Source: Bacteroidales bacterium
GTDB lineage: Bacteria; Bacteroidota; Bacteroidia; Bacteroidales; P3
Direction: 5' to 3'
NCBI GenBank assembly: GCA_017616895.1
Contig: JAFZXE010000031.1
Coordinates: 1-51,336, forward strand
Length of the DNA stretch: 51,336 nucleotides
The notes under the pieces are model-generated. The model was given only the letters and a program-made list of their open reading frames with translations, did no database searches and was not told the DNA's origin. Below, one piece after another: positions 23,401 to 51,288 of the stretch (position 1 is its first letter; every line of letters starts with the position of its first letter). Made by a program: the position numbers and the translations under genes.

Positions 23401-26400
23401 CTGAGCGTTAATAGTTTCATTGATTGAGCCTGCAACAGTGAGAACCAATGTTGCAGTGTCTGGGCAACCCTGAGGTGTCAAGCCTGCGTCAACATAGGTA
23501 CCAGACACCGAATAGGTCTGGTTGTTACGAGCCCATGTATAGGGTTCGCACTGCCCCTCATCCACAACCAATTCGGAGTGGACTGTTGGATTCATCGTGA
23601 CTGTGACAATATTCTCGTATGTGCTGACACAACCGTATTCGTCGCGGAGGAAAAGGTCGCACGTCTCGGTTCCGTTGAAGTTGTCCGGCGGTGTGATTTC
23701 CATATATACGCCGCTCTTGGTGGAGTTCCAACCGCAGGTAACCCACGAGGAATCAAGGTCAACCTCATAGCTCCAACTGTCTGGCAACAGTTCCTCGTTA
23801 AGGCCAAGCTCCCAGTGAAAAATATTGCCATCATCAATAGACCATCCGTCAACAACCTCTATCGACCACGTACCGTTCAATGGGCAGGTTACTAAGTTCG
23901 AAAAAGGCTCGTAAGGATGGTATATCTGTGTCATATCCTCATAATGCGAAGAGTCTATGGAACTGCTGTTGTCGTGCCCCACATTGGCACCCTCATAAAC
24001 ATAGCCGTAGGTCCCGCCCGCATATACATAGCCGCGGTCGGTGTTGTTCGACCAGATGTAGTTCCACCCCGTGCCTATCGTACTTGGGGAATCGCAACTG
24101 GATGAATACCCTGATCCAGATATTCCAAAATCATAATTATCATACGTAGTTGCAACATCACCCCACGAATTGTATCCAGACGGAACAAGATCATGACATG
24201 TTGTACTACTTGAACTACCACCACCACTCTGAGGTAAAATTACAGCTGTGCGTCCACTAGGACAGGTCAATGCAATATAAATATCACCAATATAAGAATG
24301 TTCAAGATTAAGCAAAACATACAGAATATCGTTTGCATTACGCACCGTGGCATTTGACGAAAAGTCGGTAAACGTCACACTTGAACGGTATGTACATTCA
24401 CCATTGCAGGGAACATTATCTGGAATCCAAACTGTGTCGGTGACACCAAGTGTGGTGGACGCACCACCACTGGGACGTACCACATCGATAGCTCCAACAC
24501 CATCGGTCGACACATATATATTAAAGGGTTCGCCATGACAGAGGTTAAAGCTGGGACGTGTAGCGACCTGGAATACACCAGCCACTCGTACACGCACTGG
24601 AATTGAAACACAGTCAGAATTGTTTCTTCTGACCTGAAGAGTAACACCATAACCTGCAGTACGATCGTAGGTATAGGTCATCTGGGTGCCGGTAGTTTCC
24701 TGAATAAGACCGCCAGTGGAGGATGCCAGCTTCCATGTGTAGGTGTAGGTACCGTTGCAGGTGTTCAGTTTCTGCACACGGAGCGTCATCGGCGTATTAA
24801 GACAGACATCGGCATAGTAGTAACCGTCGTCAGCAAGATGCAACGGGAATGGTTTGTTGTCCTGATAGATGTAGAACGACTCGAAGTCGCAGCATCCAAG
24901 GTTGTTGGCCGTCACCGTCCAGTTGATGATGCGTGTAACGGAACAGCCCATCGCATTGGTGGCGGTAATGGTGAACGAGCCAGAGCCAGCTGCCGTAGGT
25001 GTGCCAGTGAAGGAGCCGTCGCTGTTCAATGTCAACCAAGCAGGCATTCCATTGGCGGTGAAGGTTGCACCCTCATGAGAGCCTTCGGGAGGATAGCCGT
25101 ACATAGGTACTCCCACATAACCGCTCACATTGGTCGTGGTTGCATCATATTGCACATCGAATACGTGAACCGTAGATGGCACCCTCGAGCTGTAGCAATG
25201 CTGATCAGTATTGTAAGCTGCCACATAGTATGTCGTCGTGGTAGTTGCATTCGTGTGATAAGTGCCGCCAGTGTTGACATACGTATCAGCCAGCACATTG
25301 TCAAACCAACGCAACTCCAAATTACCATCGTCGTCACGCACTGTGGCGGTGAGGTCCACCGCCTGCGGGGCACACACCCATACACTCTGGGCCGACGGAA
25401 TTGCAGCCGGGCATATCACCTCCAAGTCATAAGAATCCCGCGCCGAACAGATATCTCCGTCAATCGGTGCTATCACTGAAATCGTCGTAGTTCCCAACGA
25501 ATGAGTGGTGATGACTCCGTTTTCATCAACGGTTGCAACCGACGGATCGGACGACGACCATACCAGAACTCCATTGTTGCCGTCACGGTCGAGAGTAATG
25601 GTCGGCTGACCTCCAAGATAGCACATCGCCAACGAGTTCGAGAAGCCGAAATTCTCAGGACGTGTATGGCACGGTTCAATACATATCTTGACATTGGGAC
25701 GCGAAGAACTCGTGCTCGTAGATCCCGAATAACTGGATATCGTGGACGGCACAGCGTCGTATGTGTCATCGTATGCGTATATTACCGTTGTACCGCTGGT
25801 TGATGTATAATAGAAAGAGTGTGAGCTATAACTCGTTGTAGCGCAGTCCATGGCTATCACCAAATTGCCAACTCCCGAGTAAACGAAAGGCTCGTCAAGC
25901 GAGAACATGTTCCACCCATCAGATATTGTCCACGACACCGGACCATAAACATGCTCCAGCTGGTTGACTGGTATCCAATCCGAGGATGACGAGAAGGTGC
26001 TGCGGGTGGTCTCGCCTATGTATATATCTACCGTTCTCGGTTGCGTGTTGTTCCCAGAAGCATTAAAACCGATAGAAGTGATGAGTCCAGCCGTACCTAT
26101 CTCGTCGGCAGTGTAAATTATCTGGTCATAACTATTCCTGTATAGGCCATACAACGGAGCTGTACTCTGCGTACTTGAGCCCGTACCGATTTTACGGCAG
26201 CCATCGCCAGAATTGATAGTATAGGAAACAGACTTAGGACAGGTACTGCCACTACCGGCAATGTATGCGGTTATAACTGCAAGACCCTCAACATCATGAA
26301 AAGTCAATGCACCTGTGTTGGGGTTCACTTCGACAACATCAGGATTCGAGGAGGTAAAGGTCGGTGTACCAGCCGGAGTCAGGTTGTTCACGAGAGTAGG

Positions 26401-27141
26401 TGCCACAAACGGACTACCAATAATGTAATCAACGTAGGTCACAGGATTGTTTGATTCATTGCGGAACTCAAAAATACCAGTGCGCTGCACTGTACAACAG
26501 TTTGAGTATGTAAACCTCGTATTTGCACGGTATCCATACTGCGAGCCTGTATTTGAACCAGGGTGAGTGGTTCCATAGGTACCGTCGCTGTCATTTCCTC
26601 GATAAAGGCCAGGATACTGCGAACCGGTAACCTCGGAGTAATAATAGGTCACGCTACTTGTCCAGCCAGAGCCTGCGGTCTTCGCCACCACAACCACCAA
26701 ATTCTCATCCCCATCGTATGCAAATGGGGTGTCAAGGGTGAAGGTATGCCAACCATCGACACCACCAATTGTGGTTGTGCCATGGTTATACACTAGCTGC
26801 AAATTGCTTACAGGGGTCCAATCCGACGTGCTTTCATGCGTTGCTGTTGGACGCGTTCCCATGTAAATTCTCAATCCCGATAGCGACATCGTACTCGATG
26901 GACTTGCACACTGGAAAGCAATCTTTGTAATAGAGCATCCAGCGGCCGCACCAAGCTCAGACGGCTGATAAATCATTTCGTGCCACGAATTGTTGTATAG
27001 ACAATAGAACGGCGATGTGTAACTCGACGCTGTGCCCGTACCGCACGTAATAGTTTGGGCACTTGTTGTTGCCACAAAAACACCAATCATCAGCGCAAGC
27101 GCGAAAATAAACTTGTTAAAACGCATAGTAGTGCTTCTCAT
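20485..27141 (-). CDS. Large multidomain surface protein, type IX secretion substrate (type B sorting domain), 2218 aa
   Basis: A smaller relative of the neighbouring giant. Signal peptide FNKFIFALALMIGVF...TTSA at about residues 8-28. Domains: two N-terminal beta modules (~33-205 and ~315-490), Ig-like stretches, a P-domain-like module ~911-1130 (HSYIGDIYIALTCP ... VVDGWSIDDGN), about ten Cys repeats of 45-60 residues of the form C..YTW..NGQTY ... GCDSTVTLHLTIN, and a C-terminal gliding-motility-type domain from ~2128 (LWFPNVFTPNLNINKTF) ending TVILMR. Every Cys repeat carries one Cys near its start and one in GCDS, consistent with oxidised surface modules. Predicted to be exported by Sec, then by type IX secretion, and kept at the surface. 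The start could equally be M6 at 27126, which gives a more standard signal peptide. It has its own promoter and terminator. Function unknown; adhesion is an inference. Confidence 0.9.
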   Translation of the reverse strand: MRSTTMRFNKFIFALALMIGVFVATTSAQTITCGTGTASSYTSPFYCLYNNSWHEMIYQPSELGAAAGCSITKIAFQCASPSSTMSLSGLRIYMGTRPTATHESTSDWTPVSNLQLVYNHGTTTIGGVDGWHTFTLDTPFAYDGDENLVVVVAKTAGSGWTSSVTYYYSEVTGSQYPGLYRGNDSDGTYGTTHPGSNTGSQYGYRANTRFTYSNCCTVQRTGIFEFRNESNNPVTYVDYIIGSPFVAPTLVNNLTPAGTPTFTSSNPDVVEVNPNTGALTFHDVEGLAVITAYIAGSGSTCPKSVSYTINSGDGCRKIGTGSSTQSTAPLYGLYRNSYDQIIYTADEIGTAGLITSIGFNASGNNTQPRTVDIYIGETTRSTFSSSSDWIPVNQLEHVYGPVSWTISDGWNMFSLDEPFVYSGVGNLVIAMDCATTSYSSHSFYYTSTSGTTVIYAYDDTYDAVPSTISSYSGSTSTSSSRPNVKICIEPCHTRPENFGFSNSLAMCYLGGQPTITLDRDGNNGVLVWSSSDPSVATVDENGVITTHSLGTTTISVIAPIDGDICSARDSYDLEVICPAAIPSAQSVWVCAPQAVDLTATVRDDDGNLELRWFDNVLADTYVNTGGTYHTNATTTTTYYVAAYNTDQHCYSSRVPSTVHVFDVQYDATTTNVSGYVGVPMYGYPPEGSHEGATFTANGMPAWLTLNSDGSFTGTPTAAGSGSFTITATNAMGCSVTRIINWTVTANNLGCCDFESFYIYQDNKPFPLHLADDGYYYADVCLNTPMTLRVQKLNTCNGTYTYTWKLASSTGGLIQETTGTQMTYTYDRTAGYGVTLQVRRNNSDCVSIPVRVRVAGVFQVATRPSFNLCHGEPFNIYVSTDGVGAIDVVRPSGGASTTLGVTDTVWIPDNVPCNGECTYRSSVTFTDFSSNATVRNANDILYVLLNLEHSYIGDIYIALTCPSGRTAVILPQSGGGSSSSTTCHDLVPSGYNSWGDVATTYDNYDFGISGSGYSSSCDSPSTIGTGWNYIWSNNTDRGYVYAGGTYGYVYEGANVGHDNSSSIDSSHYEDMTQIYHPYEPFSNLVTCPLNGTWSIEVVDGWSIDDGNIFHWELGLNEELLPDSWSYEVDLDSSWVTCGWNSTKSGVYMEITPPDNFNGTETCDLFLRDEYGCVSTYENIVTVTMNPTVHSELVVDEGQCEPYTWARNNQTYSVSGTYVDAGLTPQGCPDTATLVLTVAGSINETINAQACESYTWDANGQTYTQSGTYEAHLTTAMGCDSNLTLNLTISNEITVEFDTTICPDNFPLNNWHGDWGDFTAAGDLQQHFTTSSGCDSLVVLHVRAYSKPNVTLPLPTGANSCPITAGSYVITPTITGATTPYIYNWIGNANSYTGTAATASIPATGTCGDFEETLYFTDAHGCKDTASVQFSAIDDQPPYFQNPNIEEVDAEPMGYDCRYRIPDLIGMLSPADNCGLAIQTQTPLPGNDILVSDSVTVTIEDRCGNVVEKRVFVKVPDPLTAGASATANPICTGTSVTISVTAQGGLPTHYDYLWSNGSTQAAQVVSPSNTTVYSVTVTDANECTATAETTVNVTQNTASVDVQTACNSFTWHGQTFTASNNTATYTTTSAAGCDSIVTLNLTINYSNVAVFEAEACETYDWHGNTYTQSTTTPTFTSTNAAGCDSVTTLHLTVYHSETIEHNVTACDTYTWTIRGNSYTRTSSCDVTDTYTIGTCTGTDILHLTINNSSTGIDNEEACDQYPWSLNGQTYTSSISATSPSAPRVTMQNANQYGCDSTIVLNLTINHSTSGVFTVTECDHYMWPMNSREYYETPTTAPTVSAGLNAAGCDSTVTLHLTINHSTASNDVHTACDSYTWPLNGQTYTYSTNEPEVVITNRAGCDSTVTLRLTINNTRYGSYIDTVCSGEQLTYRGNRYPAGQHTVTIPGTNGCDSVVALQVVARQPLSISIEEFHSCELGHYHVTATLNSTNSNISHVWTSRPNDPDVAPQSNDLEIMVNPTRNTEYTITAGYGPNRLCAVSQAINLTPLDLPIADLTFNPTFLTCESLDWTAHSASQNAESVTWYVNDIEVSHDETINGRAECDDDSVRISIVAVNGICTDVHDTVIYVRKSQLWFPNVFTPNLNINKTFNAIGHGIVEYELYVYTREGLLVFHTTTLEEGWKGDHNGVECPRAAYTYIARYRNEIEPDVWHSQIGTVILMR

Positions 27142-27551: not shown

Positions 27552-30071
27552 ATGTTACTTTCTGAATTACAAACAGGTGAACGCGGTGTCGTTGTTCGTG
27601 TCGCTGGTCACGGGGCCTTCCGCAAACGCATCATCGAGATGGGATTCATCAAGGGTGCCACCGTGGAGTCGGTTCAGAACGCTCCTCTCAACGACCCGAT
27701 AAAATACCGCATATTGAATTTCGAGGTGTCGCTGCGCCGCAGCGATGCCGAAAAGGTTGAAATTGTCAGCGAACATGAGGCCGAACGCGAGATTGTAAAC
27801 CACGACGACTACCGCCCCATCGACAACCCCGACTGCGACGCCATGCACCATATCGCCGAAGAACGTGGCAAGACTATAAACGTGGCGTTGGTTGGCAACC
27901 CTAACTGCGGCAAGACTTCCATCTTCAACATTGCCGCCCACGCCCACGAGCGCGTCGGAAACTACAGCGGAGTCACCGTCGATGAGAAGGTCGGCACCTT
28001 CCAGCACGGCGGCTACACATTCAACCTCATCGACCTTCCAGGAACCTACTCACTCAGCGCCTACTCGCCCGAAGAACTCTACGTGCGCAAACACATCTTG
28101 GAGAAGAACCCCGACATCATACTCAACGTGGTCGATGGCTCCAACCTCGAGCGAAACCTCTACCTCACCACTCAGCTCATCGATATGGACATCACGATGG
28201 TGATGGCGCTCAACATGTACGACGAGCTGCAACGCAGCGGCGACAAACTCGACATCGACCAACTCTCCACCCTGCTTGGAATGCCCATAGAGCCCACCAC
28301 CGGACGCAACGGCGACGGAATCGACCGACTCTTCGACACGATAATCGAAGTATTTCTGGGTAATCGGAGTGGTCTGAGTGATCGGAGTAATCTGAATAAT
28401 CAGAGCTTTCGCCATATTCATGTCAACCACGGGCGCGAGCTGGAACGCTGCATAACAACCCTGCGCTCCGAACTCCGCGATCACGGTTTCAGCGACACCC
28501 TCTCGACCCGTTTTCTCGCCATCAAACTGTTGGAAAACGATAAACAACTCGAACAGTATGTTGAAGAACGCGACCCCGACGGCAGCGTGCTGAAGATGCG
28601 CGACGAAATCGCCGACAAATTCCAGAAAGAAATCGGGCGACGACTGGTGGACAAAGAGATAAGCAACGGACACCAGGTCACAGTCGAAGATGAGCATCAG
28701 GATATCGAGAGTGCCATAACCGATGCAAAATACGCTTTCGTGCGCGGAGCCTTGGCCGAGTGCTACGTGAAAAACAAAAAGAGCACACTACATGCCCACA
28801 CCGACAAAATCGACGCCATTGCCACACACAAGTGGCTTGGGTACCCGGTATTCCTGTGTGTACTTTTCTTCACATTTTTCTGCACCTTCTTCATCGGGCA
28901 GTATCCCATGAATTGGATAGATGCACTGTTCGAATGGATTGGCTCGTTGGTGGAGAAAGCCATGCCCGACGGGCCTCTGCAAAGCCTTCTGGTTGACGGC
29001 ATCATTAGCGGCGTTGGCTCGGTGATTGTCTTCCTGCCGCAGATACTCATTCTCTACCTCTTCATCTCGGCGATGGAAGACAGCGGTTATATGGCACGCG
29101 CGGCGTTTATCATGGACAAGTTCATGCACAGGATGGGGTTGCACGGCAAGAGTTTCATACCCATGATTATGGGCTTCGGATGCAACGTGCCCGCCATCAT
29201 GGCGACCCGCACCATCGAGGACCGCAAGAGCCGCCTGCTCACCATGCTGATAATCCCGATGATGAGTTGCTCTGCCCGCATTCCCGTCTATGTCATACTT
29301 ACCGGTGCATTCTTCGGCGGCGTGAAGGCTGCATTCATCATGATGGGCCTGTATATGATAGGCATGATTATGGCAGTGCTGATGGCGAAATTGTTCAGCC
29401 GTTTCTTCGTCAAAGGCGAAAGCCTGCCCTTCGTGATGGAACTGCCGCCCTACCGCATGCCTACGGCAAAAGCCGTCCTGCGCCACACCTGGGAGAAAGG
29501 CAAGGAATACCTCAAGAAGATGGCAACCATCATACTCGGCGCAAGCATCATCGTATGGGCGCTGAGCTACTACCCCACCCACGAGAATCCACACTATCAA
29601 GCCGAACACAGCTATATGGCGCAAATCGGAAAGGCGATCGAACCCGCCATGAAACCCTGCGGCTTCGACTGGCGCCAGAGCGTGTCGCTGCTCGCTGGAG
29701 TAGGTGCCAAAGAGGTGGTGGCCAGCACGATGGGAGTGCTGTACAGCACTGGGGCAGAACTGTCCGACCCGTCCAACCTGTCCTATCTGTCCGACTCGTC
29801 TGACTCGTCCGACTCGTCTGACAAGTCAGACCTCTCTGACCAGGCTAACAAGGCCGAGCTGTCAGACCTTATCCGCCACAATATGACCCCCCTATCGGCA
29901 CTCTCGATGCTACTGTTCATACTGCTATACATGCCATGCGTGAGCACTATCGTAGCCATCAAGAACGAAAGCGGAAAGTGGAAATGGGCGTTGTTCACGG
30001 TGGCATATACCATCATACTGGCATGGGTGGCTGCAACAGCGTTCTACCAACTCGGTTCACTAATCGTTTAA
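27552..30071 (+). CDS. feoB: Ferrous iron transporter, FeoA-FeoB fusion
   Basis: An inner-membrane Fe(II) importer with its accessory FeoA domain fused in front, 839 residues, a common arrangement in Bacteroidota. The FeoA SH3-like domain is residues 1-75 (GFIKGATVES, NFEVSLRRSDAEKVEIV). The G domain follows: G1 GNPNCGKTS 115-123, G2 VGNYSGVTV, G3 DLPG 161-164, G4 NMYD 221-224. The membrane part from ~430 contains the two Gate-type repeats (SGYMARAAFIMDKFMHR, GFGCNVPAIMATRTIEDRKSR). Odd: two stretches are made of 9-bp DNA repeats, residues 269-284 (R/L-S-N/D type) and 737-772 (L-S-D type); the second widens a loop before the last helices. Start ATG 27552 follows the promoter at 27517-27524. 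The small Cys-rich gene 53 bases downstream is its usual partner. Confidence 0.96.
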   Translation: MLLSELQTGERGVVVRVAGHGAFRKRIIEMGFIKGATVESVQNAPLNDPIKYRILNFEVSLRRSDAEKVEIVSEHEAEREIVNHDDYRPIDNPDCDAMHHIAEERGKTINVALVGNPNCGKTSIFNIAAHAHERVGNYSGVTVDEKVGTFQHGGYTFNLIDLPGTYSLSAYSPEELYVRKHILEKNPDIILNVVDGSNLERNLYLTTQLIDMDITMVMALNMYDELQRSGDKLDIDQLSTLLGMPIEPTTGRNGDGIDRLFDTIIEVFLGNRSGLSDRSNLNNQSFRHIHVNHGRELERCITTLRSELRDHGFSDTLSTRFLAIKLLENDKQLEQYVEERDPDGSVLKMRDEIADKFQKEIGRRLVDKEISNGHQVTVEDEHQDIESAITDAKYAFVRGALAECYVKNKKSTLHAHTDKIDAIATHKWLGYPVFLCVLFFTFFCTFFIGQYPMNWIDALFEWIGSLVEKAMPDGPLQSLLVDGIISGVGSVIVFLPQILILYLFISAMEDSGYMARAAFIMDKFMHRMGLHGKSFIPMIMGFGCNVPAIMATRTIEDRKSRLLTMLIIPMMSCSARIPVYVILTGAFFGGVKAAFIMMGLYMIGMIMAVLMAKLFSRFFVKGESLPFVMELPPYRMPTAKAVLRHTWEKGKEYLKKMATIILGASIIVWALSYYPTHENPHYQAEHSYMAQIGKAIEPAMKPCGFDWRQSVSLLAGVGAKEVVASTMGVLYSTGAELSDPSNLSYLSDSSDSSDSSDKSDLSDQANKAELSDLIRHNMTPLSALSMLLFILLYMPCVSTIVAIKNESGKWKWALFTVAYTIILAWVAATAFYQLGSLIV
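28356..28400 (+). repeat. In-frame 9-bp tandem repeat inside feoB, tract 1
   Basis: Units CTGGGTAAT, CGGAGTGGT, CTGAGTGAT, CGGAGTAAT, CTGAATAAT start exactly on a codon boundary and encode LGN-RSG-LSD-RSN-LNN. The unit is the same as in the DUF5683 gene (33488-33568). The tract lies after the G domain, where FeoB length varies. Confidence 0.85.
29760..29867 (+). repeat. In-frame 9-bp tandem repeat inside feoB, tract 2
   Basis: Nine clear and about three degenerate 9-bp units (CTGTCCGAC, CCGTCCAAC, CTGTCCTAT, TCGTCTGAC and variants), starting on a codon boundary and encoding LSD/SSD-like tripeptides. They insert a hydrophilic acidic Ser-rich loop between the conserved VVASTMGVLY and PLSALSMLLF segments. 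Confidence 0.85.
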
Positions 30072-30124
30072 CGACAACCGGTATAACGGAATAACGATAT
30101 ATCGGGATAACGAATCCCAAAAGG

Positions 30125-30265
30125 ATGCTCCAAACAATCATAGTAATCCTGATAGTAGTAACGGCGGTGGTGTTCGCCGTGCGAGGATTGGTGCGCACCA
30201 TAAAAGGAAAACGCAGCTGCAACTGCAACTGCGATAACTGTCCAAACAAATCCTGCAACAAGTAA
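30125..30265 (+). CDS. FeoB-associated Cys-rich membrane protein, 46 aa
   Basis: A small gene 53 bases after feoB: MLQTIIVILIVVTAVVFAVR forms one membrane helix, then a basic stretch (TIKGKR) and a Cys cluster SCNCNCDNCPNKSC with five cysteines. This layout, one N-terminal helix and a short cytoplasmic CxCxC..C..C tail directly behind feoB, is that of the FeoB-associated Cys-rich membrane proteins of Bacteroidota and Firmicutes, which may act as a FeoC substitute or bind Fe(II) or an Fe-S cluster. The spacer in between has degenerate ATAACG repeats but no terminator, so co-transcription with feoB is likely. The ATG has AAAGG three bases upstream. Confidence 0.88.
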   Translation: MLQTIIVILIVVTAVVFAVRGLVRTIKGKRSCNCNCDNCPNKSCNK

Positions 30266-30276
30266 AAAGTAACCCC

Positions 30277-30308
30277 ATACAGGTCACAGATCACTGGTCA
30301 CAGGTCAC
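30277..30308. repeat. Heptamer repeat GATCACT/GGTCACA in a convergent spacer
   Basis: Degenerate units AGGTCAC, AGATCAC, TGGTCAC, AGGTCAC lie between the feo operon and the convergent S4 gene, the same family as 2155-2187. No strong hairpin terminator was found between these convergent genes. Confidence 0.7.
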
Positions 30309-30691
30309 TTGTACTTAAACTCCTCTATCTCTCGCCTATCCCGTTTGGTAGGTCTCCCCGACCCTCTGTCACGTTTTTCGAAGCCGTACTGCCGCACCAT
30401 CTGTATGCGCTCGTATTCCTCCTGCGGGGTGAGGTCGGTCATATAGTCGGGCACCAGCTTTGCCGCCACACGGTTATGCAGCAGCGCTTTGACTTCGATG
30501 ACCTTATGCACCTGCTCGATGGAGAGCTCATACCTCTCTCCTACCCTCACAACATGCGACGCCTTCAGTGTCTGCTCACCCATCTTCACCTTACCCGCAC
30601 GGCAAGCATCGGAGGCGTTGCTGCGAGTCTTGTACAGCCTCACCGACCAAAGATACTTGTCTAACCGTAAAGGTTCCTGTTCTTTATCCAT
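30305..30691 (-). CDS. S4-domain RNA-binding protein, Hsp15/HslR-like
   Basis: A cytoplasmic protein of 128 residues. The S4 fold fills residues ~8-65 (LRLDKYLWSVRLYKTRSNA, then GKVKMGEQTLKASHVVRVG), as in Hsp15, which binds 50S subunits carrying a stranded nascent chain and helps recycle them. The C-terminal third is strongly basic and charged (EKRDRGSGRPTKRDRREIEEF), as in HslR relatives. ATG 30691 is the only reasonable start. It is the last gene of the exbB-exbD-tonB direction and lies 29 bases after tonB, so it may be read through from there. Orthology to hslR itself is not certain, because short S4 proteins form several subfamilies. Confidence 0.85.
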   Translation of the reverse strand: MDKEQEPLRLDKYLWSVRLYKTRSNASDACRAGKVKMGEQTLKASHVVRVGERYELSIEQVHKVIEVKALLHNRVAAKLVPDYMTDLTPQEEYERIQMVRQYGFEKRDRGSGRPTKRDRREIEEFKYK

Positions 30692-30720
30692 TCTGACAGA
30701 TGACTACTGACCACTAACCA

Positions 30721-31524
30721 CTATCTATTCACATAATTATAACGAATGCGTCCTTTCTGACGTTCTGGTGCTTTGGAATCAGGCTTAAACGTAGTGCGCT
30801 TGGCAGCCGCCACGGCCTCATCACGGAGAGAACTCACTGGAGGGTCATACTTGTCAACATAAGCATCTACAACCTTTCCTTCTCTGTCCACCAACACAAC
30901 TACTTCTATTGAGCCTTCTTTCCCTCTGTTTTCCGACGGGCGAGATTTGTTGACCACACTTCGACCCGCAAGATAATAGGAATCCCCGCCACCACCGTTG
31001 CCAGTATAGTTTGTCGAGTTGGGGTTACCGTTGGGCTTACCCATATTGCCGCTGCCGTAGGTGTTGCCACTGCTGCCGGCATTGGAGTTTGAGCCCGTGT
31101 TTGAGGAAGAATTACGATTGCCTGGGAACAGAGCATTCTTGTTAATCTCAGGCTCCTTAGGTTTCTCGGGTTGCTTGGTTTCAGTGGGAGTAGTTGTAGG
31201 CTTCTCGGTAGGCTTGGTCTTGTCGGTTTTCTTAGGCATTGCTACAGTCTCTTCTGTTGACTGCGTTGCCACGTTGTCGTTAGACGCGGCTGGTGTAGGT
31301 TGCGGTGCTGCCGTGGTGTTCTGAGCCAGCGCTGGCATGGGATTGTCTCCCAAGCCGAAGTCGGTATTGCCCAAAGCCACCTCCACGCCGCGCTCGGCGA
31401 TAGGCGGGTCGGGCGGGAAATGCTTGACCAAAATCAAAATAACGACAGTGAGAGCCGTGACAAAGAGAGTCACCGCCGCCGCTATCAGCTTATTTTTATT
31501 GGAATTAAAGTCGATATGTGGCAT
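30721..31524 (-). CDS. TonB-family energy-transducing protein
   Basis: A periplasm-spanning protein of 267 residues that carries proton-motive energy from ExbB/ExbD to TonB-dependent outer-membrane receptors. One membrane anchor lies at ~12-33 (KLIAAAVTLFVTALTVVILIL). A long Pro/Lys/Thr-rich linker follows (~95-125, KPTEKPTTTPTETKQPEKP), then a Gly/Asn/Ser-rich stretch (~130-180), then the TonB C-terminal domain ~195-267 (GSIEVVVLVDREGKVVDAYV ... AAAKRTTFKPD). The Asn/Gly segment between linker and domain is long for the family. ATG 31524 lies eight bases from the edge of a MITE-like insertion that separates it from exbD, so its expression may depend on read-through or on a signal inside that element. 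Confidence 0.9.
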   Translation of the reverse strand: MPHIDFNSNKNKLIAAAVTLFVTALTVVILILVKHFPPDPPIAERGVEVALGNTDFGLGDNPMPALAQNTTAAPQPTPAASNDNVATQSTEETVAMPKKTDKTKPTEKPTTTPTETKQPEKPKEPEINKNALFPGNRNSSSNTGSNSNAGSSGNTYGSGNMGKPNGNPNSTNYTGNGGGGDSYYLAGRSVVNKSRPSENRGKEGSIEVVVLVDREGKVVDAYVDKYDPPVSSLRDEAVAAAKRTTFKPDSKAPERQKGRIRYNYVNR

Positions 31525-31532
31525 ATACTCTT

Positions 31533-31696
31533 AGAAGCTGTTTAGATTTGATTGATGGATTTTGTTATGGACATGGACGAGCAGATTTTCTGCCTTATCG
31601 AAGGCGCAATGAGTGCCCATTGTAACTGAGATAAGGTGGGAAATATGCCGTTCATGTTCTTTAAGAAAAACATTGAATTAAATTTAAACAGTTTCT
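31533..31696. mobile_element. MITE-like 164-bp element with imperfect 21-bp terminal inverted repeats
   Basis: The left end AGAAGCTGTTTAGATTTGAT plus T and the reverse complement of the right end AGAAACTGTTTAAATTTAAT plus T agree at 18 of 21 positions; all three differences are A/G. There is no real gene inside. It separates exbD from tonB in an otherwise tight operon, and its right end coincides with the exbD stop codon (TGA at 31696-31698). No clear target duplication is visible, so the insertion is probably old, or the boundaries differ by a few bases. Confidence 0.55.
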
Positions 31697-32106
31697 CATT
31701 TTGATGCTGTTGCCAAGATAACCTTGTGCTGGGTGCCAAACTGCTCGTTTATGGCGTTGACGGCGTCGATTACGGTAACAACACACTGAACAGGCACCTT
31801 GCGGTCAGAACGTAGCACTACGCAGGCGTTCTGCACGGTGTCGATGCCACTGACAATAAGCGACTGAAGGCTTGCCGAGTCGGCTGGCACATCGCCCACC
31901 TGATAGTTCTGGTTCTCATCGATATACACCGTTACATTCTGCTTGGCCATCGTCTTGCTGTTGTTGGCAGTAGGAAGCAGCAACTTCACCGCATTAGGGC
32001 TGATAAGCGTCGAGGTTATCATGAAGAAAATCAGCAGCAGAAACACCAAGTCCGACATCGACGAACTCGACATTTCCACATTGATTTTATTTCTGGATTT
32101 TATCAT
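31696..32106 (-). CDS. exbD: Biopolymer transport protein ExbD/TolR family
   Basis: An inner-membrane stator partner of ExbB, 136 residues, normal for the family. One N-terminal helix (SDLVFLLLIFFMITSTL, ~18-34) contains the proton-pathway aspartate of ExbD/TolR, here D19 in SSSMSDLVFLL. The rest is the periplasmic domain (NVTVYIDENQNYQVGDVPAD ... VVLRSDRKVPVQCVVTVIDA). The start ATG 32106 follows exbB by a 57-base spacer filled with GGTTTAAAA-like repeats. The stop codon overlaps the right end of the MITE-like element, so the last residues (ATASK) could have been altered by the insertion. ExbD and TolR cannot be told apart from sequence alone; adjacency to tonB favours ExbD. Confidence 0.92.
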   Translation of the reverse strand: MIKSRNKINVEMSSSSMSDLVFLLLIFFMITSTLISPNAVKLLLPTANNSKTMAKQNVTVYIDENQNYQVGDVPADSASLQSLIVSGIDTVQNACVVLRSDRKVPVQCVVTVIDAVNAINEQFGTQHKVILATASK

Positions 32107-32147
32107 GAAACGGTTGGAAGGTTTAAAAGGTTAAAAAGTTGGAAAGG
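32107..32147. repeat. Degenerate GGTTTAAAA/GGTTGGAA repeat in the exbB-exbD spacer
   Basis: Short units GGTTGGAA, GGTTTAAAA, GGTTAAAAA, GTTGGAAA fill the spacer inside the operon. The same unit type is found at 47976-48022. Confidence 0.7.
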
Positions 32148-32163
32148 TATGAGACTATGTTCA

Positions 32164-32877
32164 TCAACCATTGACCGGTTCGTGGAGAAGGTCCATAAAC
32201 TCGGTGGCACGCGTTTCAAGCGCGAACACCACCTTGTTGATACGGGTGATAAGAATATTGTAAAGGAAGTAGCAGATGATACCGACAATAAGACCGCCGA
32301 CGGTGGTGACCATAGCGGTATAGATACCCGATGCCAACACTCCTATCTCGATATTGTTGCCAGCCTCGGCCATATCGCGGAATGCAACAATCATACCTGT
32401 TACTGTGCCGAGGAAACCAATCATGGGTCCCAACGAAGCCACTGTGGCGACCAGCGACACTCCTTTCTCAAGGCGTGCGACCTCCATCTGACCTTCATTC
32501 TCGATGGCAGCCTGGATGTCGGGCAGCGGACGACCAAGACGCGAAAGACCCTTATCGACCATACGTCCGATTGGTGTCTGCGTATGTTTTGCCAACGAAC
32601 GGGCTTCGTCTATCTTGTCCTCGTGAATATACTGACGTATGTTGTTCATGAACTGGTTGTCCGATTCGGCTTTCATGGCATTGCGGAGTGCAAGGTAGCG
32701 CTCAACCGAAATATAGATAGCCAAAATAAGCAGCAAAACCAGCACACCCATAATCCAGCCTCCCTTCAAGGCCATATCCCACATAGAAGTACCGCCGACT
32801 TTTTCTGCGGCACCAGCCACCGCCTGAGCTGTCTCTTCGGTGGCAACCTGATTAAGAATCAACAAAATAGAATTCAT
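32164..32877 (-). CDS. exbB: MotA/TolQ/ExbB proton channel family protein
   Basis: The inner-membrane proton channel of the TonB motor, 237 residues. The start at 32877 (MNSILLILNQ) was chosen over the longer open frame from 32955, whose extra 26 residues (YDFYLMYFYVK) do not resemble the family and come from AT-rich leader. Three membrane segments: ~45-65 (WIMGVLVLLLILAIYISVERY), ~138-160 and ~178-200, the last two in the conserved TolQ/ExbB core (SLGPMIGFLGTVTGMIVAF, then GIYTAMVTTVGGLIVGIICYF). exbD and tonB follow, making a complete ExbB-ExbD-TonB set. The N-terminal Ala/Glu-rich segment (~12-27) is periplasmic and variable in this phylum. Confidence 0.93.
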   Translation of the reverse strand: MNSILLILNQVATEETAQAVAGAAEKVGGTSMWDMALKGGWIMGVLVLLLILAIYISVERYLALRNAMKAESDNQFMNNIRQYIHEDKIDEARSLAKHTQTPIGRMVDKGLSRLGRPLPDIQAAIENEGQMEVARLEKGVSLVATVASLGPMIGFLGTVTGMIVAFRDMAEAGNNIEIGVLASGIYTAMVTTVGGLIVGIICYFLYNILITRINKVVFALETRATEFMDLLHEPVNG

Positions 32878-32962
32878 AGTATAACTTTTAATTTTGACGT
32901 AAAAATACATCAAATAAAAATCATACAAACGCACGCCTGCGTTTAATATCAACACACCTCTG

Positions 32963-33730
32963 TTAAAATGTGAGCGTGAGCGACAAGCCGGGCGCCGAGG
33001 GCAACGGATAATCGGGCAACGTCAGCATGGTCGGACTCGCCCGAAGCGAGATATCATCCGAGATATCGTAGTCAAAAAGATGTCCGAAAACGTATGCATC
33101 AATAAGGTTGAGGCCATAGAATGCGGCTGCTACTATAATGCTCAACTGAAAATACTGGTTATACGACTGATAGAGGTTGTAGATATTCGACGTGGGATAG
33201 TTGGCATAGCTTGCCAACCGCGTCGCACCGCCGTTGTTGACCCTATAAAGATACTCTTTCTTGAACTTCACCATATTGGTGCCGTTGGTGTAGATGAAAT
33301 AACCCGCACCAGCAAAGCAAGTATATATAATAGGTATCTTCCAAGCCTGATGGTTATAGACCTGACCTGCACCTGGAATCAAAGACCAAAGAAGAGCCTT
33401 CGTGGCGGAATGTTCTTTCTTGACTGTGGTGGTGGATTGCTTGGGTGTCACCCGATTTTTCTTAGATCTCGGTACTGGCTGGTCTTTCTGAGTTATCTGA
33501 GTGTTCTGAGTAATCTGAGCGTTCTGAATGTTCTGAGTAATCTGATTGTTCTGAGTATTCAGAGTATCTTGCACTCCCTGAATAGACTCCGAACCATGAT
33601 TTTTCACCCATCCAGTCACCGTGTCCTGACCGAACATCACGCCGCCTCCAACAACCAAAAACAAAGCCAGAAGAAAAACTCTGGCTCTGCTCGTTCTCAT
33701 TATGTTTACAATCTGTATGATACCTATCAA
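32963..33730 (-). CDS. DUF5683 domain-containing protein with an intragenic repeat tract
   Basis: An exported or membrane protein of up to 255 residues, unknown function, of the Bacteroidota DUF5683 family often found next to parAB. A signal sequence (RVFLLALFLVVGGGVMFGQ) fits best with a start at M11 (33700); the frame opens at 33730, just past the parB stop. Residues ~57-85 are a Gln/Asn/Thr/Ile-rich stretch (ITQ/NTQ/NIQ tripeptides) encoded by a 9-bp DNA repeat. The conserved part starts at ~108 (ATKALLWSLIPGAGQVYNHQ, WKIPIIYTCFAGAGYFIY) and ends in a hydrophobic segment (LSIIVAAAFYGLNLIDAYV) and a beta-like tail. It overlaps nothing and may be co-transcribed with parA-parB. Confidence 0.85.
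   Translation of the reverse strand: MIGIIQIVNIMRTSRARVFLLALFLVVGGGVMFGQDTVTGWVKNHGSESIQGVQDTLNTQNNQITQNIQNAQITQNTQITQKDQPVPRSKKNRVTPKQSTTTVKKEHSATKALLWSLIPGAGQVYNHQAWKIPIIYTCFAGAGYFIYTNGTNMVKFKKEYLYRVNNGGATRLASYANYPTSNIYNLYQSYNQYFQLSIIVAAAFYGLNLIDAYVFGHLFDYDISDDISLRASPTMLTLPDYPLPSAPGLSLTLTF
33488..33568 (-). repeat. In-frame 9-bp tandem repeat inside the DUF5683 gene
   Basis: Nine units, read on the + strand as CTGAGTTAT, CTGAGTGTT, CTGAGTAAT, CTGAGCGTT, CTGAATGTT, CTGAGTAAT, CTGATTGTT, CTGAGTATT, CAGAGTATC. Translated on the - strand they give N/I-x-Q tripeptides in a linker after the signal peptide. The CTGAGTAAT unit also occurs in feoB at 28356-28400. Confidence 0.88.
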
Positions 33731-35956: not shown

Positions 35957-37240
35957 TCACATCCTCTTGTGCGTCATGATGTCCAACACGACGTCGTCGG
36001 TTTCGTTCATTCCGTCGTGGCCTAGGCGGCCGAGATTGGAGATGGAGCAGTCAACATCGCGCTCCGACAAGCCGTCGGTTGCATCGACCACCTTGTCATG
36101 ACAGGCGAGCTCGGCGCTGACGAAGGCGCTGTACAATCCTGTGGACATCTTGAGTGCGCAGCTGGGTTTGGCTCCGTCACAAACCATTCCGGCTATCGTG
36201 TTTATGAGGTTTTTCACCGCATAGCACACCTGCTCGTAACCGCCACCTTGTAGGTAGGTGATGGCAGAGGTCACTCCTATCGAGGCGTTGACGATGCCGC
36301 AGAGCGCCGACAGGCGCCCTATGCCCTGTTTGACATATATCGACATCAGGTGACTGATAATCAGCGCACGAATCATGCGTTCCTCATCGACGCCGTTGAT
36401 TTTGGCATACTCATAGACGGGCAACGTGCAGCAGATGCCCTGGTTGCCAGAACCCGAATTGCTATAGACGGGCAAGGTGCAGCCATCCATACGGGCGTCG
36501 CTGGCAGCCACGGTGTTGGAAACCACAGTGTGGACGACGTCGCCGCTACGGTTTGCCTCCATCAATATCTTGCCGACGCAGAGGCCGTAGCCTTTCTTAC
36601 CCTCTTCGGCAGCGGCGGCGTTGTAGCGCACGGTGTCGTGTATGAAACGGAGCTCGTCGATGGGGCTTGTGGTCGCAAACTCGAGGACTTTCTCAACCGA
36701 AAGTTTGCAGCAACCCTCTTCGTCTTCGCCGCATGGCATGGAGCCAGCATCCTGCGTCAACGAATGCTTCTTCTCGCCGTTCTTCTCGACCAAGGTAAAG
36801 TTTGTATGGCGACCTGAGATGACGGCACGGGCGGTATCATCGCCAGACGTGCAGACGCACTCGATATAGAGCTTGTCGCAGATAACCTTTACCCCGATAG
36901 AGACATCGTCCGCATGGCGTTCGAGCCATCGTTTGGCTTTCAACACTTCGTACTCGTCAACATTGAGCACTTCGAGCTGTCGGTCGGAGTCGCCCGCCAC
37001 AATGCCTATGGCTACCGCAATGGGAAGGCCTATCATCCCCGTGCCGGGTATTCCGACTCCCATAGCGTTCTTATAGACGTTCTTGCTCAGAAAGAGTTCA
37101 ACCTTCTCTGGCTCTCTACCAAGCACTTCCCGAGCCTTGGTGGCACACAGCGCCACCGCCACTGGCTCGGTACAGCCGGTCGCTAGCACGACTTCTCTCT
37201 TAATGAGGTCTATCAGTTGTCGGCGGGTACAGTCGTCCAT
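35957..37240 (-). CDS. L-cysteine desulfidase / L-serine dehydratase-like Fe-S enzyme (UPF0597, YhaM/CdsB type)
   Basis: A cytoplasmic enzyme of 427 residues. UPF0597 proteins break L-cysteine into pyruvate, ammonia and sulfide, or deaminate serine, using a [4Fe-4S] cluster in the serine-dehydratase alpha fold. Visible: the N-terminal VVLATGCTEPVAVALC (~16-31), GVGIPGTGMIGLPIA (~60-75), the Gly/Cys block SGSGNQGICCTLPV (~282) and the cluster motif MVCDGAKPSCALK (~355-367). The start at 37240 (MDDCTRRQL) was chosen; the frame opens at 37411, but the extra 57 residues come from GTTGATAT repeat DNA and overlap the 3' end of the upstream gene. It follows the deoxyhypusine-synthase-like gene by 64 bases. 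True substrate (Cys or Ser) not decided by sequence. Confidence 0.88.
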   Translation of the reverse strand: MDDCTRRQLIDLIKREVVLATGCTEPVAVALCATKAREVLGREPEKVELFLSKNVYKNAMGVGIPGTGMIGLPIAVAIGIVAGDSDRQLEVLNVDEYEVLKAKRWLERHADDVSIGVKVICDKLYIECVCTSGDDTARAVISGRHTNFTLVEKNGEKKHSLTQDAGSMPCGEDEEGCCKLSVEKVLEFATTSPIDELRFIHDTVRYNAAAAEEGKKGYGLCVGKILMEANRSGDVVHTVVSNTVAASDARMDGCTLPVYSNSGSGNQGICCTLPVYEYAKINGVDEERMIRALIISHLMSIYVKQGIGRLSALCGIVNASIGVTSAITYLQGGGYEQVCYAVKNLINTIAGMVCDGAKPSCALKMSTGLYSAFVSAELACHDKVVDATDGLSERDVDCSISNLGRLGHDGMNETDDVVLDIMTHKRM

Positions 37241-37244
37241 GGGT

Positions 37245-37301
37245 TTTTGTTGATATGTTTTATGTTGATATGTTGATATGTTGATACGTTGATATGTTTT
37301 T
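37245..37301. repeat. Octamer tandem repeat GTTGATAT
   Basis: Units GTTGATAT, GTTGATAT, GTTGATAC, GTTGATAT plus degenerate flanks fill the spacer between two - strand genes. Similar units appear at 47967-47980. Confidence 0.75.
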
Positions 37302-37304
37302 TGC

Positions 37305-38342
37305 TTATTTGTTGAATATCTTCTGCCAGTTCTTGTATTCGCGATCTTTCCATGCGCCGTTGTGATAGACGTAGGAGGCAATAGCGGGGATAACGGTGGT
37401 ACCTTCGGCATAGACCATCTGCTGCAGTTCTTCGCTCACCTTGCCCCAGCTGCCGGCTTCGAGCAGAGTGCTGGAAGAGCAGGCACCGTCACGCACGTCG
37501 GCAACGGTTATCTGGATGGCGTATTTGTGCATAGGCACCTCGTGTCCGAGAATCTCGGCGCACACAACGGTGTCCTGTGCGAAGTTCTTAGGCGTACCGC
37601 CGCCCACCATGAACAATCCCGTCTGCGAGGCGGACATCTTGATACGGGTAAGTTCGACGAAGTCGCACACCGAGTCGATGCTCAGGTATTTCTCGCCCTT
37701 GTTGGCGCGCTCCCACTGGTGTTTTCCGATGCCGAAACCTGCGCTGCTGTCGCTGAAAGCGGGGCAGAAGATAGGCACTCCGCACTCGTAGCAGGTCTGT
37801 ATCAGGCTGTCTTTCTTCACGGCGCGGCCGTTGTGCAGCCATTTACCCAGCTCATACAGGAACTCGCGGCTGCTGTACGGACGAGCTTCAAGCATGTTGG
37901 AAAGCTCGTAGGTGGCGTTGTCGCAAGCCTGCAGCTCTTCCTCGTCGATGAAGGTATCGTAGATACGGTCGATATAAAGCTCACGCAGAACGGTGTCGGG
38001 TATGACATTCTCCTTTGTGCCCACATAGTGTTTGAAGCCCAAGGCCTCGAAGAGGTCCATATCGATGATTGAGGCGCCGGTGGAAACGACGACGTCGATC
38101 ATCTTGTTTTTCACCATATCCACATAAACCTGCATGCAGCCAGCGGCACTGGTCGAGCCGGCGAGGGTGAGGATGTTGGTGCAGTCATGCTCTTTGCACA
38201 TCATGGTCAGGATGTCGGCAGCACGGGCGGTGTCGCGACTGGTGAACGACATACCGCGCATAGCGTCGATAAGTTCTGTGGAATCGTACTTCTTGATGTC
38301 GATGTGTTTGATGGTTTCTTTTAAAAGATCTTTCTTTTCCAT
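37305..38342 (-). CDS. Deoxyhypusine synthase family protein
   Basis: 345 residues of the deoxyhypusine synthase (DHS) fold. In eukaryotes and archaea DHS uses NAD and spermidine to modify a lysine of eIF5A; bacteria have no eIF5A, and bacterial homologues are thought to make homospermidine or other polyamines. NAD-binding features are present (LTLAGSTSAAGCMQVYVDMV ~59-78, VSTGASIIDMD ~86-96, FMVGGGTPKNFAQD ~244-257). The catalytic lysine that forms the enzyme-butylimine intermediate is conserved as K301 in AGSWGKVS. The usual DHS loop before it is changed to ACSSSTLLE. ATG 38342 is clear. It lies 73 bases after dnaB and before the desulfidase gene. Substrate unknown. Confidence 0.9.
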   Translation of the reverse strand: MEKKDLLKETIKHIDIKKYDSTELIDAMRGMSFTSRDTARAADILTMMCKEHDCTNILTLAGSTSAAGCMQVYVDMVKNKMIDVVVSTGASIIDMDLFEALGFKHYVGTKENVIPDTVLRELYIDRIYDTFIDEEELQACDNATYELSNMLEARPYSSREFLYELGKWLHNGRAVKKDSLIQTCYECGVPIFCPAFSDSSAGFGIGKHQWERANKGEKYLSIDSVCDFVELTRIKMSASQTGLFMVGGGTPKNFAQDTVVCAEILGHEVPMHKYAIQITVADVRDGACSSSTLLEAGSWGKVSEELQQMVYAEGTTVIPAIASYVYHNGAWKDREYKNWQKIFNK

Positions 38343-40279: not shown

Positions 40280-40287
40280 TTCCCCTC

Positions 40288-40340
40288 CGTATCAACGCCG
40301 TATCAACTACGTATTAACTCCGTATCAAGTACGTATCACC
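40288..40340. repeat. 11-bp tandem repeat CGTATCAACTA
   Basis: Units CGTATCAACGC, CGTATCAACTA, CGTATTAACTC, CGTATCAAGTA and a short CGTATCACC, perfectly spaced at 11 bp. Another 11-bp array lies at 50779-50822. Confidence 0.85.
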
Positions 40341-40405
40341 TCTAAGACCCCTTCTATACCCCTCCTATACCCCTTCAGGGTTTCTCCATGGTTGGCTTTA
40401 GGGAG

Positions 40406-40558
40406 GTGTGAAGATGTGAAGATGTGAAGATGTTGAGATGTTAAGATGTTAAGATGTTAAGGTGTGAATGCGTTAGTGCGTTAATGTGTTAGTGCGTTAG
40501 CGTGGGATTGTGGGATTGTGTTAATGCGTTATTGCGTTAGGGGGTTATTGTGTTAGGG
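40406..40558. repeat. Degenerate 8-bp tandem repeats (GATGTGAA, GATGTTAA, GTGCGTTA)
   Basis: An 8-bp array drifts along its length from GATGTGAA through GATGTTAA to GTGCGTTA/GTGTTAAT, ending in GTTAGGGGG-type units. It is G/T-rich on the + strand, about 150 bases just before the TPR promoter. Confidence 0.8.
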
Positions 40559-40621
40559 GGGATTGTTGGCGGATTTGTGGGGTTGGGGAGGGACAAAGTG
40601 TGGCGGTTGTGTTTTTTTTCG

Positions 40622-40656: not shown

Positions 40657-41793
40657 ATGAAACGTGCGCTAACCATACTTGCAGCCATACTGTGGCTTGT
40701 GCCGTACCAACTTGCGGCACAGGAGGATACCATCGTTTCGGGTCTTATAAAGAAGGCCAAGAACGCCGAGGGATTGCACCTTATCGACCTGGCTCAACAA
40801 TACTATGAACAGGCGGTGGCGCTGGAACCTACGACGGCTGAGCCTTACGTGAGCCTCGGGAAACTGATGGAACGGCAGGAGCACTACCAGAACGCGATTG
40901 ACCTTTACCGCAAGGCGATTGGCTACGACGCGAACTCGGCTGAGGCCTACGAACACCTCGCCTACTGCCTGACGGAGAAAGAGAAATACGACGAGGCGGA
41001 ACAGGCGGCACAGAAAGCGATTGAACTGAACCCCAAGTCGGCGTCGGCAATGGCGTCGATGGCGCTGGTGTTCAACTCGCGAGGCAGCAACACCAACGCG
41101 CTGACTTGGGCGAAACGCGCGGTGGAGGCCGACCCGAAATACAGCCGCGGGTATAACGTGTGGGGCATAATCTGCTACAGCCGAGGCAACGACGCGGAGG
41201 CGATAGGACACTTCAAGAAGGCCATAGCCACAGAGCCAGAGAACATAGACGCATACGCCAACATCGGCACCATGTTCTGCATCCGCAACAACTTCGAATC
41301 GGCGCTGATATATCTGAAGAAGGGTTTGCAGAAAGAGCCAAAGTCGATAAAGCTGTACTACTGCCTGGGGTGGGCATACCGACTCAAGGGCGACCGTGCG
41401 ATGGCGATACAATGCTATGAGACCATCATCAACTACGACAGCCTTTACGTCAAGGCTTATAACCGCCTGGGCGAAATATACAACGACAAAGCCGACTACG
41501 ACCGCTCTATCGCCTACCACAAGAAGGCAACCCGCATAGCGCCCGACGACCCCAACGGTTTCAAGGGCATGGGCAAGACCTACTCGGACAAGGGCGACTA
41601 CCCGAAGGCACTCCACTCCTACCAGAAGGCGGTGCTGATAAACGACAAAGACCACGAGACATACTGCCTGATGGCGGAACTATACCAAAGACAGGGCAAC
41701 AGCCAGAGAGAGATGAACTCGTACAAGAAAGCGGCCAAACTGGGCAACAAAAAAGCCCAACAATGGCTGGTGAAACGCGGAGCAACGTGGTAG
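40657..41793 (+). CDS. Exported tetratricopeptide-repeat protein
   Basis: 378 residues. A signal peptide (RALTILAAILWLVPYQLAAQ) is followed by tandem TPR units over ~25-370, each with the usual A/Y/G pattern, for example AEAYEHLAYCLTEKEKYDEA, IDAYANIGTMFCIRNNFESA and VKAYNRLGEIYNDKADYDRS; about ten units can be counted. It probably acts as a periplasmic protein-protein scaffold; partner unknown. ATG 40657 follows the TATCTTTG box by 27 bases. The stop codon TAG is the first triplet of the 22-bp palindromic repeat (41791-41812). der follows after a repeat-filled 150-base spacer and may or may not be co-transcribed. Confidence 0.9.
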   Translation: MKRALTILAAILWLVPYQLAAQEDTIVSGLIKKAKNAEGLHLIDLAQQYYEQAVALEPTTAEPYVSLGKLMERQEHYQNAIDLYRKAIGYDANSAEAYEHLAYCLTEKEKYDEAEQAAQKAIELNPKSASAMASMALVFNSRGSNTNALTWAKRAVEADPKYSRGYNVWGIICYSRGNDAEAIGHFKKAIATEPENIDAYANIGTMFCIRNNFESALIYLKKGLQKEPKSIKLYYCLGWAYRLKGDRAMAIQCYETIINYDSLYVKAYNRLGEIYNDKADYDRSIAYHKKATRIAPDDPNGFKGMGKTYSDKGDYPKALHSYQKAVLINDKDHETYCLMAELYQRQGNSQREMNSYKKAAKLGNKKAQQWLVKRGATW

Positions 41794-41812
41794 GTGCGTG
41801 CCCGCACAGGGC
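41791..41812 (+). repeat. 22-bp palindromic repeat after the TPR gene, copy 2
   Basis: TAGGTGCGTGCCCGCACAGG plus GC, identical to the copy after dnaB. Here the gene's own stop codon is the first TAG of the repeat. Confidence 0.85.
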
Positions 41813-41813
41813 A

Positions 41814-47975: not shown

Positions 47976-48022
47976 TGATTAAATGTTTAAAAGGTTTAAA
48001 AGGTTTGAAAGGTTTAAAAGGT
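47976..48022. repeat. 9-bp tandem repeat GGTTTAAAA
   Basis: Units GTTTAAAAG, GTTTAAAAG, GTTTGAAAG, GTTTAAAAG, followed at 48020-48048 by degenerate heptamers of the CTGACTA/CTGACCA kind. It lies upstream of the - strand lipoprotein gene. Confidence 0.8.
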
Positions 48023-51088: not shown

Positions 51089-51288
51089 ATCTTGTGGGAT
51101 TAATTGAATAGAGCGAAACGCAATCTAATGACATATTGTCAGTGGTTAGTAGTTAGTGGTCAGTGGTTAGTAGTCAGTAGTCGGAGATGATTAATTTTGA
51201 ATTTTGAAAGTTGAATTTTGAAGTGCCGACGAATCACACATGTCATTTTGTCATAAAATATAATAATGGTGTTGAAATTGTGGGAAAC

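Follow-up and report, generated by a model that had tools for sequence, protein, structure and literature searches.

Three in-frame nonamer arrays in two genes

The window analysed here, a 51,336-bp stretch of a Bacteroidales genome (contig JAFZXE010000031.1, assembly GCA_017616895.1), carries three arrays of 9-bp units that lie in frame within two Pfam-supported genes: two in feoB, which encodes a FeoA-FeoB fusion, and one in a gene of the DUF5683 family (Table 1). Arrays were called with Tandem Repeats Finder (TRF) at a score threshold of 45, and the best scores of the three were 63 (feoB array 1), 57 (feoB array 2) and 111 (DUF5683 array). Array 1 consists of the units CTGGGTAAT CGGAGTGGT CTGAGTGAT CGGAGTAAT CTGAATAAT, in this order, which give the peptide LGN RSG LSD RSN LNN; by Pfam coordinates it sits between the G domain (FeoB_N, 110-264) and the cytosolic helical domain (FeoB_Cyto, 294-405). 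The DUF5683 array comprises about nine 9-mers, read on the minus strand as ITQ/NTQ/NIQ, and has in common with array 1 the unit CNGAGTRAT (plus strand; unit A). Array 2 is built of another unit (unit B, GTCNGACNN), found in exact form at 29789-29831.

A sequence-only reading of the window had claimed that one 9-bp unit occurs in sense in feoB and in antisense in the DUF5683 gene, that feoB holds a second 9-mer array, and that all three keep frame as tripeptide repeats in loops or linkers. All of this was borne out, the unit of the second array being B and not A.

Table 1. Genes and tandem arrays of the window
Feature	Position	Strand	Evidence
feoB, FeoA-FeoB fusion, 839 aa	27552..30071	+	open reading frame (ORF); Pfam FeoA, FeoB_N, Gate, FeoB_C, FeoB_Cyto
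feoB array 1 (loop 1), five 9-mers of unit A	28356..28400	+	sequence, TRF, codon view against relatives, Pfam coordinates
feoB array 2 (loop 2), 9-mers of unit B (GTCNGACNN), read xSD	~29762..29867	+	TRF 29762-29822, codon view
DUF5683 gene	32963..33730	-	Pfam PF18935, E 1.8e-37
DUF5683 N-terminal linker array, unit A in antisense	33486..33566	-	TRF, translation, linker comparison
Octamer array TGTTGATA near start of the 35957-37411 ORF	37248..37298		TRF, comparison with relatives
Spacer mosaic: 11-mers CTCCGTATCAA then ACCCCTTCTAT, then 8-mers TGTGAAGA and GTGCGTTA	40285..40566		TRF, sequences, blastn
Spacer heptamer arrays AATTTTG and ACTTAAA	41813..41944		TRF, orthologous spacer comparison
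Spacer 9-mer array AAAGGTTTA	47981..48022		TRF
Spacer heptamer arrays GTCAGTA and AATTTTG	51138..51222		TRF

Units A and B recur in the genus in several reading frames

Below, G000 denotes the genome of the source DNA (88% complete), the remaining G-codes denote other genomes (one genome per species), and L-codes denote individual stretches or loci. The genome and its relatives were searched for three tandem copies of each unit (one mismatch allowed for A, exact for B) in 59 genomes of the genus, with the reversed pattern as control: A was found in 18 and B in 25 of the 59, while both reversed controls gave 0. Beyond the genus, A was present in four of the 294 other genomes of the order sample, all from other families (G169, G247, G269 and G303), as if independently acquired or transferred.

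Within G000, three units of A with at most one mismatch matched at two sequence windows, both in feoB (reversed control 0). Two tandem units with up to two mismatches matched at three places, as did the reversed control, so that this search is uninformative alone. No A array was found by pattern search in G000 outside feoB and the DUF5683 gene; evidence for A as a dispersed unit thus comes from the relatives of G000 and not from G000 itself. The expectation of further arrays of the same unit in this genome therefore failed literally for A, yet 17 other genomes of the genus have A arrays, and B was found at eight places in G000 (18 matching sequence windows, against 51 in G014).

In ORFs of the genus (a list that includes ORFs without a Pfam test), A was read as xSN, as GVI, and in antisense as ITL/ITP/ITQ and SDY, while B was read as xSD and also as xPT, the latter in the linker of a Fer4_20/Pyr_redox protein of G000 and in its G041 counterpart. 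Pfam-matched carriers of B were FtsK (two places), TopA (two places, G041), DsbD, a chromate transporter and a subtilase; those of A, in other members of the genus, were a radical SAM protein and CinA, and a degraded A-like array lay within a 900-residue ORF of G041. For CTGAGTAAT, LSN is the sole open sense frame and all three antisense frames are open, which fits the readings found in feoB and the DUF5683 gene. Among spacer copies of B there were TAG variants, which would stop the xSD frame. Because the units are read in several frames, and A on both strands, these readings indicate that the DNA unit recurs and not the peptide, as the sequence-only reading had held; the same loop residues encoded by non-repetitive DNA were not found in distant relatives.

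Some B arrays are stable: G041:C31 and G014:C19 (L142) carry three of them at equal spacing and with near-identical sequence, and the homologous stretch of G000 (L146) carries the middle one only.

Arrays in the FeoB loops of relatives

We collected 110 FeoB loci (30 + 80), of which 84 were distinct after 26 duplicates had been dropped; the closest FeoBs were those of uncultured Bacteroidales from rumen and gut. Loop 1 had 15 residues (EGRDTKTRH-like) in 61 of the 84 and was one or two residues shorter in two. Unit A occupied it in six (G000, G004, L161, L168, L216 and L220), and unit B in two close relatives (G014 and G041). Furthermore, one FeoB (L178) carried in frame a heptamer array with its inverted copy behind it, another (L191) a palindrome occurring twice, also in frame, and in 11 the loop was longer without a clear array. 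This comparison of loop lengths, which the sequence-only reading had suggested, thus placed arrays in a minority of relatives and indicates that the feoB arrays are real insertions, most relatives being without them.

On a tree built by a quick method without the loops (24 of its 81 forks open), and with the 11 long loops without a clear array left unscored (73 of the 84 FeoBs counted), array presence in loop 1 required at least seven changes, array kinds at least eight, and unit A alone six. The clade of G000, L161, G014 and G041 (support 97) has both A and B in loop 1, a pattern that suggests replacement of one unit by the other at a single site. In loop 2, unit B was present in G000, G014 and G041, with shorter arrays in the latter two, and TATTCTGAW-like 9-mers were present in L220 and, more weakly, in L213. 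The DUF5683 linker held different 9/18-mers in G014 and no TRF array in G041. Array number and length vary among relatives.

Genome-wide load of short tandem arrays

The census of G000 covered the window and 20 further stretches (436,271 bp) and gave 165 arrays, or 37.8 per 100 kb, against 0.7 per 100 kb at the same score in block-shuffled sequence of six G000 stretches. Spacers, which make up 11.5% of the bases, held 116 of the arrays, ORFs held 39, and 10 were mixed. The minimum periods of the spacer arrays were mostly 7, 8 or 11 bp (35, 20 and 33 of the 116), in keeping with the sequence-only reading; period 9 accounted for seven and period 10 for none. A single dominant unit, such as marks the TAACTGA and GGGAATC cases discussed below, was not found in G000, which had many units of periods 7, 8, 9 and 11. 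Array density per 100 kb was 40.5 in G014, 32.2 in G041 and 15.8 in G044 and G028. For five other families, sampled at 40 kb each, it ranged from 0 to 20, and in the densest of these (G072, 20 per 100 kb) six of the eight arrays had period 10.

Spacer arrays of G000 (n = 103) were distributed as 61 co-directional, 25 divergent, 9 convergent and 8 unclassified, close to the proportions of spacer sequence in the three classes (29.8, 11.3 and 6.0 kb). No bias of array orientation relative to genes or GC skew was visible in small counts, and such a bias was rejected as an explanation. Nor was a fixed array length accepted as proof that elements had been copied: arrays of period 7 become scarcer beyond 35 bp, but the signal is weak.

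Individual spacers differed between genomes. In the mosaic at 40285..40566, CTCCGTATCAA is followed by ACCCCTTCTAT, an order repeated at other G000 loci; in the corresponding spacer, G041 has CCGTATCAACG and G014 a 22-mer. At the spacer orthologous to 41793-41945, G041 has a 24-mer, whereas G014 has a weak AATTTTG array on the opposite strand. The octamer array TGTTGATA probably lies upstream of the true gene start, because the ORF of G014 has a later start; neither G014 nor G041 had a TRF array at this site.

Composites of (CTCCGTATCAA)n followed by (ACCCCTCCTAT)n were observed in G000 at L072 17596-17881, L074 17949-18231 and L075 12101-12420, with a common flank of about 180 bp at 89-91% identity. 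The array part of the CTCCGTATCAA composite was also observed without this flank at window position 40285, in L077 and partly in L065. Another dispersed 11-mer composite, in which a GTA-like motif recurs roughly every 11 bp and drifts over the length of the array, lies at L070 7011-7265, L069 18720-18932 and L081 9880-10059.

Heptamers and octamers inside genes

The sequence-only reading had suggested that coding copies survive selection only when divisible by three, which proved too narrow, as the unit need not be so. Gene calls were ORF-based, with several "coding" arrays in small or start-extended ORFs; gene names are therefore given only with a Pfam match, which one of the 10 array-bearing ORFs (from L072) lacked. 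In G000, the genes of an amidohydrolase, a MutS_V protein and an Fn3-associated protein carried the heptamer AATTCAA (NSKFKIQNSKF-like reading), that of a phosphopantetheinyl transferase carried ACAGGTC heptamers, and that of a GAF-PMSR protein carried octamers. The dxs, RNase R, PagL-like and beta-galactosidase genes of G014 carried the octamer GCAATCAA (AIKQSSNQ-like reading). AATTCAA, ACAGGTC and GCAATCAA are each stop-free in one orientation only, namely the one used.

The same loops differed between genomes. In dxs, G014 and G041 carried octamers in the loop where G000 carried heptamers, and the loop was short in G022, G023, G008 and G047. In the amidohydrolase, heptamers filled the loop in G000; G041 had a decayed form of them, G014 had an octamer-like stretch, and three relatives had a short loop. 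Only G014 carried octamers in the RNase R loop, where the seven other genomes had no clear array. In the genes examined, arrays occupied loops, linkers and tails, in a frame and strand free of stops and with a total length in frame. Since heptamers and octamers lie in frame in Pfam-supported genes, the coding rule appears to be a stop-free reading of the unit and a total length in frame, rather than divisibility by three.

Unit sharing within and between genomes

Pairs of G000 arrays with the same unit numbered 84 for period 7 (mean after shuffling 10.6), 22 for period 8 (0.7), 6 for period 9 (0.2) and 35 for period 11 (0.2). In G014, octamers were shared in 24 of 406 pairs (expected 0.8), and strong within-genome sharing was demonstrated for G000 and for G014 octamers only. 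Between G000 and G014, same-unit pairs were few at period 7 (1/530, expected 0.5) and period 11 (2/684, expected 0.5), while between G000 and the nearer G041 they amounted to 18/380 at period 11 (expected 0.2) and 0/50 at period 8 (expected 0). These counts indicate that units spread within G000 and change with descent, octamers being partly shared. Thus the "mobile or expanding" repeat of the sequence-only reading stood in part: unit sharing and orthologous spacers support a repeat that is dispersed and turning over. Its mobility was not demonstrated: none of the arrays could be linked to a transposase, and those that were read showed neither constant ends nor target duplications.

Hairpins in spacer arrays

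The folding set initially comprised five A and seven B spacers, the A ones chosen for a visible inverted copy, and then the remaining two A and three B spacers. Of the seven A spacer arrays, five continue into an inverted copy, with folding z-scores of -4.7 to -8.6; all 10 B spacers fold with z of -2.3 to -5.3, and the B units are self-complementary. Inverted partners within 150 bp in the G000 sample were found for 4/43 arrays of period 7 (expected 2.7), 0/32 of period 11, 0/20 of period 8 and 0/8 of period 9. Inverted partners as a feature of all arrays were therefore rejected, since at periods 7, 8 and 11 they showed no clear excess over expectation.

Origin of the arrays

What the comparisons demonstrate is the recurrence of units, largely species-specific sets of them, repeated entry into the same loops and a coding filter. 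With moderate confidence, we propose that these patterns may arise by copying between arrays together with slippage, filtered by coding constraint. The three arrays in feoB and the DUF5683 gene would then have survived within coding regions from a repeat load, carried by the whole lineage, of dispersed tandem units of 7, 8, 9 and 11 bp. Existing arrays would seed new ones by copying, most likely through microhomology-driven template switching in replication or repair, and the arrays would subsequently lengthen or shorten by slippage, so that the set of units drifts separately in each genome. Whichever unit is current would collect in tolerant loops, FeoB loop 1 among them. The A hairpins and the self-complementary B units may help to stall replication and trigger switching.

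Several observations weigh against this proposal: i) two of the seven A spacers (L094 and L111) fold little better than shuffles (z -0.15 and -1.4), and because of these and of the lack of an inverted excess at periods 7, 8 and 11, hairpins cannot be a general cause of arrays; ii) internal sharing in G014 was 0/45 for heptamers and barely detectable for 11-mers (2/153), and in G041, which has few arrays, it was 0/28, 0/1 and 1/45 for periods 7, 8 and 11, and the absence of sharing for G014 heptamers and within G041 reduces our confidence; iii) octamers are common to G000 and G014 above chance (12/725, expected 0.9), G000 and G041 share heptamers (8/424, expected 2.4), and one G014 spacer has the G000 heptamer AATTTTG on the opposite strand, so that the unit sets are not clean dialects of their species; iv) array density is uneven in the genus (15.8 to 40.5 per 100 kb); v) the 11-mer composite family with the common flank may travel as a larger element; and vi) no copying event was caught, with neither a strain pair with and without an array nor a traced donor. 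A stronger form, in which an active process, through templated addition or obligate template switching, writes short arrays drawn from a small genome-specific set of units into break sites and stalled forks throughout the chromosome, is speculative and rather improbable; if true, loops of housekeeping enzymes would be rewritten with a new unit whenever the set of the genome changes.

Purely local birth, by slippage from chance seeds with unit sharing as a product of composition or of a polymerase motif preference, we regard as unlikely. It agrees with the differences in array number and length between relatives, with the lack of sharing among the loci of G014 and of G041 for heptamers, and with a survey in which heptamers were the commonest long simple repeats in most of its genomes and polymerase slippage was proposed (PMC4679880). 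Exact unit sharing in G000 and among G014 octamers was many-fold above that of letter-shuffled units, while G000 and G014 have few heptamers or 11-mers in common; local slippage alone does not readily explain the sharing in G000. Non-autonomous mobile elements, of the repetitive extragenic palindromic (REP), miniature inverted-repeat transposable element (MITE) or Rickettsia palindromic element type and moved by a transposase such as the REP-associated tyrosine transposase (RAYT), would account for the hairpins in many A and B spacer arrays and for the 11-mer composites that keep their order at several loci, three with the common flank. Y1_Tnp (PF01797) is moreover present in 39 of 58 genomes, including the B-rich G044, G022 and G027. 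It had no match, however, in the array-bearing G000, G014, G041, G017, G043 and G006, the arrays vary in unit number, period and sequence, and the arrays read showed no constant ends. RAYT mobilisation was thus rejected as a general cause, a RAYT being unnecessary in genomes without one, and we consider mobile elements a distinctly unlikely origin.

That spacer arrays are functional 3' hairpins or regulators, with the gene copies as accidental by-products, is very unlikely: although the A hairpins reach z of -8.6 and some lie between convergent genes, spacer arrays follow the amount of spacer sequence in each class, show no consistent orientation to genes in the small counts available, and matched no regulatory family in an Rfam search of the window and eight loci. 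This search matched only two tRNAs, and known RNA families were rejected as the identity of the arrays. Most improbable is selection on the peptide, by which hydrophilic xSD/xSN/xTQ linkers would be favoured and the likeness of the DNA would be secondary. It would fit the occurrence of xS(D/N) in both FeoB loops whether the DNA is A or B; the same DNA units occur, however, in other frames and strands and in spacers, TAG-containing B variants included, and the single open sense frame of CTGAGTAAT, LSN, is enough alone to give xSN. Several frames and strands thus disfavour selection on the peptide only.

Relation to known repeats

Short tandem heptamer families located in spacers are known in cyanobacteria as short tandemly repeated repetitive (STRR) sequences, and the G000 arrays resemble them in this arrangement. 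Two features fit the class of dispersed short tandem repeats at large, namely 165 arrays in 436 kb and a spacer location for 116 of the 165. Rickettsia palindromic elements are longer, single, homologous palindromic elements of about 100-150 bp that lie in frame within unrelated protein genes. A small repeat in frame inside unrelated genes is found here as well; in contrast to those elements, the coding arrays here are tens of bp of 7-9-mers in several unrelated units, with a variable number of units and largely species-specific sequence. Unlike REP elements moved by a RAYT, the arrays occur in genomes (G000, G014 and G041) where no Y1 transposase was matched, G000 being 88% complete.

TAACTGA heptamer direct repeats have been described in Beggiatoaceae, cyanobacteria and five Bacteroidetes, mostly in intergenic DNA, in an account that finds units divisible by three likeliest in coding regions (PMC4679880). 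As presented there, they are dispersed, with few copies per set, mainly intergenic and lineage-scattered, much like the arrays of G000 (PMC4679880). That case, however, concerns one heptamer that in the main genome lies mostly just upstream of start codons (PMC4679880), whereas here several units of 7, 8, 9 and 11 bp occur in one genome, differ between species and lie in frame in housekeeping genes. GGGAATC-type heptamers of Xanthomonas and Nostoc, for which four units are the preferred number, are likewise genome-wide and over-represented in non-coding DNA (PMC4692102). They are G-rich and tied to quadruplex formation (PMC4692102), whereas the common units here are not G-rich and the spacer arrays have no location preference. 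Literature searches directed at repeats of Bacteroidetes or Bacteroidales gave neither titles nor abstracts describing such arrays, which is not proof of their being unpublished.

Short tandem repeats of bacteria are usually viewed as products of local slippage; here the same units are spread through a genome, change for the most part between close species and enter the same housekeeping loops again and again. The genus is thus a natural experiment in the dispersal of repeats and in the birth of new protein loops from non-coding DNA. A caution also follows: loop sequences such as NSKFKIQ or SDKSD in these proteins mirror the repeat set of the genome and not the function of the protein.

Other features of the window

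Two tRNA genes lie on the minus strand (2225-2297 and 48105-48189), both with a short tandem array no more than about 100 bp away. Adjoining feoB, two ORFs of 5860 residues (2484-20066, minus strand) and 2218 residues (20485-27141, minus strand) lie side by side and perhaps encode giant surface proteins.

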